A stretch of 64,000 bases of DNA from Halobacteriovorax marinus SJ (lineage in GTDB: Bacteria > Bdellovibrionota > Bacteriovoracia > Bacteriovoracales > Bacteriovoracaceae): the NCBI RefSeq assembly GCF_000210915.2, contig NC_016620.1, forward strand, positions 2,294,001-2,358,000, written 5' to 3'. Below the pieces are notes generated by a model. It was not told the DNA's origin and did no database searches. It saw only the letters and a program-made list of their open reading frames with translations. Numbering within the stretch: the first letter of the stretch is position 1; each line of letters starts with the position of its first letter. Below, piece after piece: positions 19,354 to 24,448 of this stretch. A program made the translations under genes and the position numbers.

Positions 19354-20589
19354 TTACTCGGTAATGCTATTTTTGAAAACCTTTGAGGTAAGAAAAATTA
19401 CCATGACAGATATCATTAACGCAACGAGACCAAAGTTAAAAATAAAATAAACGCAATACGCAAACCCACGTATTAGAGCCTGTAGCCAAGGTCTCTCAAT
19501 TATAAATGGGACATATTGCGGCGCAGTCTCATAATAGAAGTCTACAAAGCTCTGGCCTAATTTTACCTTAAGGAGATAATGATCGCGAATATAGCGGAAG
19601 TAATTGAGAACATAGTGCTGCTCCATAAAGCCAGCAGAAATAAAGTAACATTGATTCTTCTCAAGGAATTCTGCGATCTCTAACGGTGTCCCGCTAAGTG
19701 GCGAAGCAAGTGGAGTATAGAATCCATAGAAGTCCCTTACAGCAAAGGAAATATTATAAGTTCTTCCGTTTGAAAGATTCTTGGCCTCAAATAGGCCACT
19801 GGACTGAGGTGTCACATCATCGTCTATAGAAAGGATTTCGTTGATTCCCGCCTGTCCAAATTTACTATTGAAGCTACTGACATCAAAAATAGCTATATCT
19901 CTATAATCATTTTGAATCGCAGACACTGTGTAATTGAGTTTTAATCTTTGGTCACCTTTTTCAATAGATGTTAAGGCCGTAGTGACTGTGGATTCATAGA
20001 CTCTTCCACTAATATTGAGCTCTACAAATAGACCGTCACTACCACTAGTAGGATCCGAGATTGAAGTATCAACACCGGCCTGAGAAAGATAGAGGTAAGA
20101 GCTTACAGTCACTGGTGCTGAGAGTGCTCCCGCACAATCGATCTCCGTTGAGTTACAGATCGTCGCGATTGAGAAGCTTGAAATAACATCTTCACAAGTA
20201 GAACTTGTAGAACACCCAATAGTTGAGCGCCCAACAAAGAGATAATTGGTGCTTGAGTCATCTTTGACATAGAGAGTTGGATAGAGAACATTTACACTAT
20301 CCGTATTTACGATATCAATTGTTGTATTGAGCGTTTGAGTACTATTAGATTTAAAGAGTGCTGTCTTTAGAATATGATTATCTGATTGAGTTGTTCCAGA
20401 GCCAGAGAGCGGTATATAGAGCTTGAGTGGCGCACTTGATGAAGTTCCGTCTCCACCCAAAGTATTATAAACGGAATAAATATTTCCGACATTAACTACC
20501 GGCTCGGTAGTATCGCTTAGTCGCACAGTGCTAGCGAATGTATTAACCGAAAATAAGATTGCAAAGAGTGTTATAAGATATTTTTTCAT
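19354..20589 (-). CDS. Secreted protein with CFI-box-CTERM region and C-terminal membrane helix
   Basis: The 411-residue protein has a signal peptide (residues 1-19, ending TFA). About 290 residues follow that are rich in Ser, Thr and Asn and look beta-stranded, with a Cys pair region near 130-153. Near residue 313 begins a CFI-box-like domain: CYFISAGFMEQH, then YFRYIRDHYLLKVKLGQSFV, FYYETAPQY and PWLQALIRGF. This order matches the CFI-box-CTERM family, though CFI is CYFI here and the usual AYG is AGF. A single membrane helix follows (about 383-403). The domain's function is not established; sorting or surface anchoring is often supposed. Confidence 0.8.
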   Translation of the reverse strand: MKKYLITLFAILFSVNTFASTVRLSDTTEPVVNVGNIYSVYNTLGGDGTSSSAPLKLYIPLSGSGTTQSDNHILKTALFKSNSTQTLNTTIDIVNTDSVNVLYPTLYVKDDSSTNYLFVGRSTIGCSTSSTCEDVISSFSIATICNSTEIDCAGALSAPVTVSSYLYLSQAGVDTSISDPTSGSDGLFVELNISGRVYESTVTTALTSIEKGDQRLKLNYTVSAIQNDYRDIAIFDVSSFNSKFGQAGINEILSIDDDVTPQSSGLFEAKNLSNGRTYNISFAVRDFYGFYTPLASPLSGTPLEIAEFLEKNQCYFISAGFMEQHYVLNYFRYIRDHYLLKVKLGQSFVDFYYETAPQYVPFIIERPWLQALIRGFAYCVYFIFNFGLVALMISVMVIFLTSKVFKNSITE

Positions 20590-20674
20590 CTTATTGATTA
20601 TCTCAGTAATTTACGACTTTCGTCAAATTTATTGCTCTTGTCAGCTAAAGCTAAGCATGGAATATTACTTAATT

Positions 20675-21175
20675 ATGAAAAGATACATCTTTATACTCTC
20701 TCTCTTATTTCTTCAGTCGTGCTTAAAGCCCGATGAAGTTGAAAATAAATCTCATGTTGTTAAGTCCATGGGCGAAACTGTGGCCAAACAATATTCAGAT
20801 ATCCCTCACCTCTCTATTGAACAAATGCAAAGCTTAGAGAAAGACACTTATATTCTTGTAGATATAAGATCATTGCCTGAAATAGAAATTAGCTATATTC
20901 CAAACTCTTTAACGCAAAAAAAGTTTGAGCAGGAACTACCAAACTTTCAGGGCAAGAAAGTCATTGTATACAGCACCCTTGGACCGAGAAGTTCTAAGTA
21001 CGTTCGTCTTCTTAGAGAAAAGAAAATTGACGCCTATAATTTGAAAGAGGGAATTCTTGGCTGGGCCCACAGAAAACTGCCTCTCTTAGAAAATGGAAAA
21101 GAAACTCTGCGCCTGCACGTCTACACTGATGCCTATAACTTCACACCAAGTGGTTATGAGGGAGTTTACAAATAA
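20675..21175 (+). CDS. Lipoprotein with a rhodanese-like domain lacking the active cysteine
   Basis: The start at 20675 is chosen because it gives a lipoprotein signal, MKRYIFILSLLFLQSC, with Cys16 in a LQSC lipobox. An ATG at 20657 in the same frame is possible. Residues 60-150 follow the rhodanese pattern: ILVDIRSLPEIEISYIPNS, KVIVYSTLGPRSSKYVRLL and LKEGILGWA. The catalytic cysteine expected in the loop xCxxGxRS is missing (YSTLGPRS), so sulfur transfer by the usual route is unlikely. It heads an operon with an aminotransferase, an ankyrin-like protein and adenine deaminase. Confidence 0.85.
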   Translation: MKRYIFILSLLFLQSCLKPDEVENKSHVVKSMGETVAKQYSDIPHLSIEQMQSLEKDTYILVDIRSLPEIEISYIPNSLTQKKFEQELPNFQGKKVIVYSTLGPRSSKYVRLLREKKIDAYNLKEGILGWAHRKLPLLENGKETLRLHVYTDAYNFTPSGYEGVYK

Positions 21176-22029
21176 AGTCCTTAGTTTCTATTAACGGAGT
21201 TATTAGCGATCCATCTAGCGCCAAAGTCTCAGTCTTTGACAGAGGTTTCTTATATGGTGACTCCATCTATGAAGTGACCCAAACATTTAGTAGGAAGATT
21301 TTTAAGCTAGACGAACACTTTGAAAGACTTCTTTACTCTGCTGATAAAATGGAGATGCCACTCGACTTTACACTAGAGAAATTAAAAAGCGATTTAGAGA
21401 AAGTCTTAGAACAACTAGACACTGATTTTGCTTATATAAGAATTGTCGTAACTCGTGGAGAGGGAGAAATTGGTCTTGACCCTGCTCTGGCCACTAAGAA
21501 TAATGTCATTATCATTGTAAAGGAATTACCTCCCAACCCTAGTTGGTGGTATGACGATGGTGTTCATATGATTATTTCTCACACTATGAGAAATCCTAAA
21601 AACGCTGTCGACCCTAGAATTAAATCTGGTAACTACCTCAATAATGTTATGGCCATGCACGAAGCCAAGAAAGCCGGCGCATTCGACGCTATTATGCTCA
21701 ATGCAAAGGGAGAAATTACAGAGGCCACCACTTCAAATATCTGGATCGTTAAAGATGGCGAAGTTATTACGCCACCAATTAAGGCCGGTCTCTTAGGCGG
21801 TATTACCAGAAAGTCACTTATTCAAATTGCTAAAGATAATAAGTTAAATATTTCCGAGAGAAACTTCGATGAAGATTTTCTAAAGTCGGCAGATGAGTGC
21901 TTTCTCACTAGTACGACAAAACTCTTAGTACCCATTACTAAGATTGATAATTGTCTCATTGGAGATGGTAAACCTGGAAAGTATACGCTGCAATTATTAG
22001 ATCTTTATAAGAAAGCTAATCATATTTAG
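21172..22029 (+). CDS. Class IV PLP aminotransferase (IlvE/D-amino-acid aminotransferase type), apparent AUA start
   Basis: The 285-residue protein has the class IV fold: FDRGFLYGDSIYE near residue 23-35, the PLP lysine in DPRIKSGNYLNNV, EATTSNIWIV for the phosphate cup and GLLGGITRKSL. The family covers branched-chain and D-amino-acid aminotransferases and aminodeoxychorismate lyase; the motifs do not decide which. No ATG, GTG or TTG lies between the in-frame stop at 21157 and the codons for essential FDRG. ATA at 21172 fits: it overlaps the upstream stop as ATAA and has GAGGGAG 7 bases before. A GTG at 21274 would cut off 34 conserved residues. Confidence 0.9.
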   Translation: MKSLVSINGVISDPSSAKVSVFDRGFLYGDSIYEVTQTFSRKIFKLDEHFERLLYSADKMEMPLDFTLEKLKSDLEKVLEQLDTDFAYIRIVVTRGEGEIGLDPALATKNNVIIIVKELPPNPSWWYDDGVHMIISHTMRNPKNAVDPRIKSGNYLNNVMAMHEAKKAGAFDAIMLNAKGEITEATTSNIWIVKDGEVITPPIKAGLLGGITRKSLIQIAKDNKLNISERNFDEDFLKSADECFLTSTTKLLVPITKIDNCLIGDGKPGKYTLQLLDLYKKANHI

Positions 22030-22037
22030 GAGCACCT

Positions 22038-22694
22038 GTGGACAACAAGGCCCAAACAAACGCAAGACGATTACTTAGAATACTCACTGAAGATAAATAT
22101 ATTAAACGTAGAGCTCCATTTATTATTTCAGTGGGAGTGGTGGCTATTGTTTTAATGATTGTATCATTCTATAGAAATACCCACGCCACTAAAGAGCAAT
22201 ACTTAATTGGAAGGGAAGATAAATTAAACTTCAAAGATATTGATGATGCTCTCAAATCTGGGATCAATTTTGAAAAGCTTGGAAAAGAAAAAAAGCATAT
22301 TCTCTTCTACCTTGGAGCAGCACCCTACTCTCTTGAGGTCTTAAGTTATTTGAAAAAGTCTGGAGTCAATCTTAAGTCCTACAACTCAAATAATCATAAT
22401 GCTCTTGAAGACATCCTACTTTATCTCGACCTTGATCCAGAGGCCCTTGAAGAGAGCTTTTATACAAATATCTCGACTCTGCTAAGTTTAGACTTAAGCG
22501 TAAGTACAGAGGTTTTAAAAGAAGCTTCAAAGAAATGTGAGACGACTTCTCTTTCAACATGTCTAAAAATCGCCTTCTACTATAAGGCCATAAATAAAAC
22601 GAACCACGCCAGAAGCTATGGTATGAGGGCCTGTTATACATCTAAGGAAAATCCTATTTGTGCCTTGGCCCAAAGAAATATTCTAGGGGAATAA
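22038..22694 (+). CDS. Membrane-anchored protein with ankyrin- and Sel1-like segments
   Basis: The start is GTG at 22038, with TAGGAG six bases upstream. The 218-residue protein has a short cytosolic arm and one membrane helix (about residues 25-43), so most of it is probably periplasmic. Residues 90-130 (SLEVLSYLKKSGVNLKSYN) resemble an ankyrin repeat. The last 50 residues (CLKIAFYYKAINKTNHARS, then CYTSKENPICAL) resemble a Sel1/TPR unit with a cysteine pair. Both resemblances are weak. It sits 8 bases after the aminotransferase and abuts adenine deaminase, so it is an operon member with an unknown role. Confidence 0.65.
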   Translation: MDNKAQTNARRLLRILTEDKYIKRRAPFIISVGVVAIVLMIVSFYRNTHATKEQYLIGREDKLNFKDIDDALKSGINFEKLGKEKKHILFYLGAAPYSLEVLSYLKKSGVNLKSYNSNNHNALEDILLYLDLDPEALEESFYTNISTLLSLDLSVSTEVLKEASKKCETTSLSTCLKIAFYYKAINKTNHARSYGMRACYTSKENPICALAQRNILGE

Positions 22695-22696
22695 TA

Positions 22697-24448
22697 ATGA
22701 TTCAATCTAAAAGTACTCAGCAATTAACCAGAGAAGAATTAAAGCACGTACTAAGTGTGGCCAGAGGTGATGGTGAAATTGATATTCTTATAAAGAACGT
22801 TAAAATCATGGATCTAGTTAATGGAGAAATCAATGAAAGTGCCATTGCTATTGCCGGAAAAACCATTGCAGGAACAGGACTTGAATACTTAGATCAAAAG
22901 GCAAAGAGAGTTATCGATGCTAATGGTGACGTCGCTGTCCCAGGGTTTATTGATGGTCACTTACATATTGAATCATCCATGATGCATCCTTTTGAATTTG
23001 AAAGACTAACTCTCCCTCTTGGAACAACAACGGCTATCTGCGATCCACATGAAATTACAAATGTAATTGGAGACAAAGGTTTTAGCTGGTTTCTTAGATG
23101 TAGTGAATTAATGAAGCAGAACCTCTTTGTACAAGTAAGCTCATGCGTTCCCGCTCTTCCGGGGTTTGAAACAAATGGTGGACCATTTCCTCTAGAGAAA
23201 ATGAAGGCCTATAAGAATCACCCTAATGTATTAGGCCTTGCAGAAATGATGAATTTCCCAGGTGTGATCAACGCCTTTGATGATGTTTTAGACAAGGTAG
23301 AAGAGTTCCAAGAGATGAATTTAGATGGGCACTGTCCACTAGTTAGGGGAAAAGACCTCAATGCCTATATCGCTGCAGGAATTCAAAATTGCCATGAAAC
23401 TATCACTAGAGAAGAAGGCAAGGAAAAACTCTCCAAGGGAATGGCGCTCATAATTAGAGAAGGTTCAGTTGCCAAGAATTTAAAAACTCTAGCTCCACTA
23501 GTTACTGACTTTAACTCTTGCCAATGTCTACTTTGTACAGACGATAGAAACCCTTATGAAATTTTCAACGAGGGCCATATAAACTATCTCGTAAAAAAGA
23601 TGATTAATGAAATTGGTATTGAGCCACATGTGGCCTATCGTCTAAGCTCTTACTCCGCAGCTAAGCACTTTGGACTTAAACGACTTGGTCTTATTGCCCC
23701 GGGGAAGCAGGCCGATATTGTTCTCCTAAGTGATTATAAGAATGTTGAAATTAGTGACGTCTTAATGAAAGGTCTTCCAGTGAAAGAGCACAAAGTCGAG
23801 CAATCACTTTCAAAAAATTTAGAAGAGTCTAAACCTCCAATTGAAAATACAATGAAGAGATCACCTTTGGGCGACAAAGAAATTGAGTTCAACTTTGAGC
23901 AAGGAACCTACAACGTTATCGAAATTGTAAAAGATGAAATCATCACGAATCACCTAAAAGTAAATTATGATGGTGAAAAATTTGAATTAGATGATATTAA
24001 AAAGATTTGTGTCATCGAGAGATACGGACAGAATATAAAGCCGGCGCTAGGACTGGTAAAAGGTGCAGGACTAAGCACTGGGGCGATTGCTTCATCTGTG
24101 GCCCACGACTCTCACAATATTATTGTCATTGGTGAAGATGAGAGTGATATGACTGTTGCGGCCAATAAACTCATTGAAATGGGTGGTGGATTCTGTGTTG
24201 TTAAAGACGGAAAAGTTATCGCCTCTTTAGCACTTCCAATTGCTGGGCTACTTAGCTTAGAGAGCGCTGAAGTTCTCACCGAGGGAATTATAGAACTTAA
24301 GAAGGCGTGTAAAGAAGTTAATGTTCACTTGAATGAACCTTTTATTCAAATGGCCTTCTTGGCCCTGCCAGTTATCCCATCTTTAAAAATTACTGATAAA
24401 GGCCTTGTTGATGTTACAAAGTTTGAATTTATTGATCTTAAAGACTAA
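22697..24448 (+). CDS. ade: Adenine deaminase
   Basis: The enzyme converts adenine to hypoxanthine and ammonia in purine salvage. The start at 22697 is preferred over an upstream in-frame codon at 22658 because AGGGGA lies 6-7 bases before it and the family N-terminus fits. It is 583 residues, close to the usual 570-600. It has the amidohydrolase metal motif DGHLHIESSMMHP (near residue 88), the family's CDPHEITNV and a C-terminal domain with HDSHNIIVIGEDESDM. It ends the four-gene operon and is followed by a hairpin. A scavenged-nucleotide diet would suit it. Confidence 0.95.
   Translation: MIQSKSTQQLTREELKHVLSVARGDGEIDILIKNVKIMDLVNGEINESAIAIAGKTIAGTGLEYLDQKAKRVIDANGDVAVPGFIDGHLHIESSMMHPFEFERLTLPLGTTTAICDPHEITNVIGDKGFSWFLRCSELMKQNLFVQVSSCVPALPGFETNGGPFPLEKMKAYKNHPNVLGLAEMMNFPGVINAFDDVLDKVEEFQEMNLDGHCPLVRGKDLNAYIAAGIQNCHETITREEGKEKLSKGMALIIREGSVAKNLKTLAPLVTDFNSCQCLLCTDDRNPYEIFNEGHINYLVKKMINEIGIEPHVAYRLSSYSAAKHFGLKRLGLIAPGKQADIVLLSDYKNVEISDVLMKGLPVKEHKVEQSLSKNLEESKPPIENTMKRSPLGDKEIEFNFEQGTYNVIEIVKDEIITNHLKVNYDGEKFELDDIKKICVIERYGQNIKPALGLVKGAGLSTGAIASSVAHDSHNIIVIGEDESDMTVAANKLIEMGGGFCVVKDGKVIASLALPIAGLLSLESAEVLTEGIIELKKACKEVNVHLNEPFIQMAFLALPVIPSLKITDKGLVDVTKFEFIDLKD

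Follow-up and report, generated by a model that had tools for sequence, protein, structure and literature searches.

The window, a 64,000-nucleotide stretch of the Halobacteriovorax marinus SJ genome (3.44 Mb in two contigs), carries on its forward strand a gene for a rhodanese-domain lipoprotein (20675..21175; starting with MKRYIFILSLLFLQSC) and, directly after it, a gene for a class IV PLP aminotransferase (21172..22029; 285 amino acids). The first protein matches PF00581 (E = 1.3e-7) and bears a lipoprotein-type signal, as read from the sequence, and its frame is conserved as far as its own stop codon, TAA at 21173-21175. The second matches the Pfam profile Aminotran_4 (PF01063) over the whole domain, with E = 3.8e-64 and 217 bits against a cut-off of 28.5, and thus belongs to the class IV aminotransferases. 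It is predicted to be of the branched-chain/D-amino-acid type and reaches no NCBIfam subfamily cut-off; the best match, PRK08320, gives 280.8 bits, under its cut-off of 363. Public relatives of the enzyme are found in Halobacteriovorax marinus isolate 36_234_T64 and Bacteriovoracaceae bacterium UBA3083. A second, longer class IV-like aminotransferase of 357 amino acids, read as IlvE-like, is encoded in the same genome, and the gene studied here therefore need not encode the main branched-chain aminotransferase. The next gene on the forward strand (22038..22694; GTG start, 218 amino acids, no family match) likely belongs to the same operon. An Rfam search of positions 20000-23000 matched no regulatory RNA family, and scans for promoters and terminators gave matches at chance level.

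On its upstream side, the aminotransferase frame is closed by an in-frame TGA (21157..21159, forward strand), after which it reads GGG AGT TTA CAA ATA AAG TCC TTA GTT TCT ATT AAC GGA. No ATG, GTG or TTG is present in this frame between the stop and codon 35, counted from the ATA at 21172..21174. Codon 35 is a GTG (21274..21276) located 3' of FDRGFLYGDSIYEV and beyond the FDRGFLYGD segment, which bears out the original prediction that the conserved protein is intact before any canonical start. The same prediction had left two initiators after the stop, ATA 21172 and ATT 21190, of which the former is conserved and the latter is rejected as an internal isoleucine codon. Initiation at GTG 21274, the first canonical start, or at AUU, a known rare start, is very improbable: the GTG start would delete the conserved FDRGFLYGD and its counterpart is missing in three relatives (G002-G004), while the ATT (21190..21192) codes for the conserved isoleucine of SING/NING, is kept inside the protein in ATG-started relatives and lies 25 nucleotides from the Shine-Dalgarno (SD) sequence. 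In two relatives, the first canonical start in the frame lies as far as 58 and 62 codons downstream of the ATA. Counted from the ATA, the predicted N-terminus appears to have the right length, with no deficit compared with the solved archaeal-type branched-chain aminotransferases 5cm0 and 5e25, whose residue 4-5 aligns to residue 4 of the present protein.

The ATA shares nucleotides with the TAA of the rhodanese gene in a four-nucleotide stop/start overlap, ATAA (21172..21175, forward strand), which is ATAG in two species and ATGA or GTGA in relatives. It is preceded, with a spacer of 7 nucleotides, by the SD sequence GAGGGAG (21158..21164, forward strand; duplex energy about -8 kcal/mol). Both the overlap and the position of GAGGGAG had been proposed and were confirmed, and the same overlap recurs in ten genomes. 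With a stop/start overlap and an SD inside the upstream gene, the two genes have the layout of a coupled overlapping pair. A hairpin, GGAGTYTA-CAAA-TARA, can be drawn across the SD and AUA within the genus (window positions 21160-21185; loci L002-L005), and one of its pairs covaries there from T-A to C-G (L001-L003 versus L004-L005). It is not claimed here: most z-scores are weak (in the genus, +0.4 to -2.3), and the other genera do not keep the structure.

Alignment of the orthologous locus, set beforehand as a test, placed ATA at the same position in all five sequenced species of the genus (G000-G004; three with ATAA and two with ATAG), where the relatives are 65–82% identical to the window protein, and in five species of two further genera (G040 and G074-G077; 52–57% identity). 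The search of the family covered 129 genomes, 71 of which had a match to the aminotransferase, and the ATA carriers beyond the own genus were one of two genomes of g10 and four of the five g12 genomes having the gene. All ten ATA loci share the -4 overlap with the rhodanese stop and keep purines at positions -12 to -8, and no canonical start replaces the ATA. In g10 and g12 the SD just upstream is AAGGAG, AAGGGG or GAGGGAG, and most of these loci contain no ATG, GTG or TTG between the in-frame stop and FDRGF. The remaining g12 genome, that of a sister species (G015), has ATG in the same column (CCCATGAAAG versus ACCATAAAAG), and in the rest of the family the start is usually ATG, otherwise GTG or TTG. 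In G010 (g7), the aminotransferase has an apparent ATT start (GAAGGGGTTAGCGATTAAAG) with an SD of AAGGGG and an in-frame ATG open further upstream; its rhodanese stop stands in a different frame relation, and two congeners use TTG. A single G-to-A change would be enough to create the ATA, but a sequencing error or a mutation newly acquired by one strain is vanishingly improbable, because the codon is present in ten genomes that were assembled independently and come from different species, several with a completeness of at least 99%. Of the two possibilities originally offered, the natural AUA start has thus held, whereas error or fresh mutation has not. Like the conserved AUA/AUU starts of the infC/ccpN kind, the gene has no canonical in-frame start before the conserved protein, and its start codon is conserved between species together with a strong, well-spaced SD.

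The phase of substitutions was compared among five genomes of the genus. In the last 20 codons before the ATA, 70 synonymous and 48 non-synonymous differences were counted in the rhodanese frame versus 18 and 101 in the aminotransferase frame, while 3' of the ATA the counts were 61 and 90 in the aminotransferase frame versus 12 and 137 in the other frame. Variation is greatest at the third position of rhodanese codons 5' of the ATA (difference rates 0.54/0.15/0.15) and at the third position of aminotransferase codons 3' of it (0.58 versus 0.41 and 0.24). Precisely at the ATA, constraint passes from the rhodanese frame to that of the aminotransferase, whose coding constraint therefore begins there; this counts against an extended N-terminus. 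A rival reading is a -1 frameshift as ribosomes finish the rhodanese gene, producing a rhodanese-aminotransferase fusion with AUA as an internal isoleucine codon. The frame relation is indeed -1 in every ATA locus, and CCCAUAA, found in three loci, would allow tRNA-Pro to re-pair after the slip. However, re-pairing would be poor at the CAAAUAA and ACCAUAA junctions, and no slippery sequence is conserved across the junctions TACAAATAA, TACAAATAG, TACCCATAA, TCACCATAA, ACACCATAA and TTCCCATAA. Moreover, sister genes have an ATG, GTG or TTG start at this junction, the SD and its spacing are conserved, and with the lipoprotein signal of the rhodanese protein a fused product would carry a PLP enzyme out of the cytoplasm. 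A frameshift is accordingly improbable. It is very likely instead that the aminotransferase is translated from AUA 21172, an old initiator in a coupled stop/start overlap, because this is the only start-like codon that gives an intact N-terminus of the right length, is conserved, follows a strong SD and coincides with the change of frame.

The rarity of such starts was assessed in 400-kb stretches of four genomes. In the 400 kb from the genome of the window, 377 open reading frames had conserved counterparts in the stretches taken from other members of the genus, and 331 were matched in the two more distant ones. The more distant genomes were used because alignments to the closest genome alone ran into conserved upstream DNA and were uninformative, and genes found frameshifted or truncated in one genome were set aside. 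Among the 331, only the aminotransferase gene and one other (G000:2459818) were, on inspection, consistently without a usable canonical start. The latter (contig C1, ~2459818, forward strand) shows an ATT after conserved GGAGGCGCCT and encodes a 217-amino-acid signal-peptide protein with no Pfam family. This ATT is common to the G000, G003 and G002 stretches, with no in-frame ATG, GTG or TTG for about 40 codons past it in G000 and G002, and appears to be a second conserved non-canonical (AUU) start. Checked separately, infC (G000:C1 ~2041178, minus strand) has an AUU start in five of the five genus genomes (TGGAGGTGATTT-ATT-AAAGACAAG). The other ATAA junctions in the 400 kb mostly have ATG or TTG directly after them. 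Two further loci were encountered in G000 (contig C1, forward strand). At ~2456245, a frame for a secreted protein, M23 peptidase-like by eye, lacks a canonical start in G000 and G003, overlaps the end of the upstream gene and contains an in-frame TGA in G000 where G003 has CGA; it is possibly a damaged gene or has an odd start. At ~2139265, the first codons (TTGAATTATTCAACAATC) are out of frame with the remainder in comparison with G001, which is a frameshift, either real or a sequence error.

The phylogenetic analysis of 71 family members, with the start region left out, showed that all ten ATA sequences fall into one group of 12 (SH-aLRT 83), the other two members of which have ATG. The start-codon state requires three changes on this tree, compared with a mean of 9.6 for shuffled labels. 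A single gain followed by two returns to ATG is favored; three separate ATA gains would also cost three changes, with support for the group at 83. The AUA probably arose from AUGA, when the upstream stop went from UGA to UAA in the ancestor that the three genera share; two later losses would have followed. Such an ATG-to-ATA change through the neighboring stop, as first suggested from the window, finds its counterpart in a sister species whose junction reads CCCATGA. Because ATG goes with an upstream TGA and ATA with TAA or TAG, part of the conservation could stem from selection on the stop codon. It is quite plausible, at somewhat less than even probability, that AUA is a start without regulatory purpose, a by-product of UAA being favored over UGA upstream, whether by selection or by mutation, with the strong SD and the coupling making the loss of AUG nearly neutral. 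TGA is the rarest stop in the 400-kb control (40 out of 377), both ATAA and ATAG are found, and the SD is strong wherever AUA is used. Nevertheless, the same control contains 12 ATGA overlaps, which argues that UGA is not excluded at overlaps, and AUA was retained through several speciations, with two ATG exceptions in the clade.

Under translation from AUA, ribosomes ending the rhodanese gene at UAA or UAG and held by the SD would reinitiate one nucleotide back on AUA, which the ordinary fMet-tRNA(CAU) would read despite a C-A mismatch in the third codon position. Three tRNA-Met(CAT) were identified among the 30 tRNAs read out of 36; five of the six unread ones have the usual length of Leu/Ser tRNAs. 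A special initiator tRNA with a UAU anticodon was sought as well, and none was present in the 30 of 36 read. Initiation on AUA would be weak and probably sensitive to IF3, with the strong SD and the coupling as compensation; the sensitivity is suggested by the finding that raised IF3 in E. coli inhibits non-canonical starts, as well as SD-less reinitiation (PMC2268962). Energies of the SD:anti-SD duplex ranged from -6.8 to -8.3 kcal/mol (median -8.0) at 11 AUA/AUU loci, while they were scattered, with a median of -6.1, at 16 rhodanese-coupled ATG/GTG/TTG loci (p = 0.007, shared ancestry ignored), and the SD is nearly absent (-0.1) in the ATG-bearing g12 species. This fits a compensation of the weak start codon by SD strength, a trend described for GUG/UUG starts (PMC5622118) and, in S. 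aureus, for starts with AUA or AUU (PMC13009471). Coupling of termination and reinitiation has been demonstrated at ATGA overlaps (PMC6728339), and S. aureus provides proven cases of AUA initiation with an extended SD, where output is ~10% of AUG in reporters and, for ccpN, up to 30% in rich medium (PMC13009471). By analogy, AUA probably throttles expression of the aminotransferase. More tentatively, and in our view rather doubtfully, the AUA/AUU genes of Bacteriovoracaceae (infC, the aminotransferase and G000:2459818) might form a class responsive to IF3 or growth, with AUAA/AUAG as a distinct near-cognate reinitiation site.

Among 61,358 inferred ancestral AUG starts, switches to GUG, to UUG, to CUG (two) and to AUU (one) were recorded and none to AUA (PMC5622118). 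Surveys of annotated genes almost never register AUA starts, and gene finding limited to ATG, GTG and TTG, as in the open reading frame list of the window, truncates the genes that use them. A conserved AUA that overlaps an upstream stop offers a natural system for asking whether reinitiating ribosomes are less strict about the start codon, how far a strong SD makes up for a weak start and how selection on stop and start codons conflicts at overlaps; since sister species naturally carry either ATG or ATA, the comparison is direct. In the open-access literature, outside which most subscription papers lie, no description of this aminotransferase gene, lineage or AUAA/AUAG overlap context was found.

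Conserved starts other than AUG, GUG and UUG are already known as a kind. E. coli infC starts with AUU and is autoregulated by IF3. The likeness lies in a weak AUN start against which IF3 discriminates, infC of the present genus also starting with AUU; however, the IF3 link belongs to infC, and none is known for the aminotransferase. In S. aureus, infC, ccpN and, in one lineage, citZ start with AUA and cvfC1 with AUU, sharing natural AUA/AUU codons and a strong SD with the present gene, and the non-canonical starts of ccpN and cvfC1 are conserved between species (PMC13009471). Ribosome profiling and reporters located those starts, which are not described as stop/start overlaps, whereas the AUA reported here overlaps the upstream stop, lies in another gene of another phylum and is known from sequence. 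The ATGA/TGATG systems of termination-reinitiation (PMC6728339) share the four-nucleotide overlap and the SD inside the upstream gene, but here the overlap is ATAA or ATAG and the start falls outside AUG, GUG and UUG. The enzyme itself resembles the branched-chain/D-amino-acid aminotransferases (PDB 5cm0, 5e25 and 1daa) as a full-length class IV protein by sequence, although it falls below the NCBIfam subfamily cut-offs. Set against these systems, the locus is best read as a natural, long-conserved AUA start inside a stop/start overlap.
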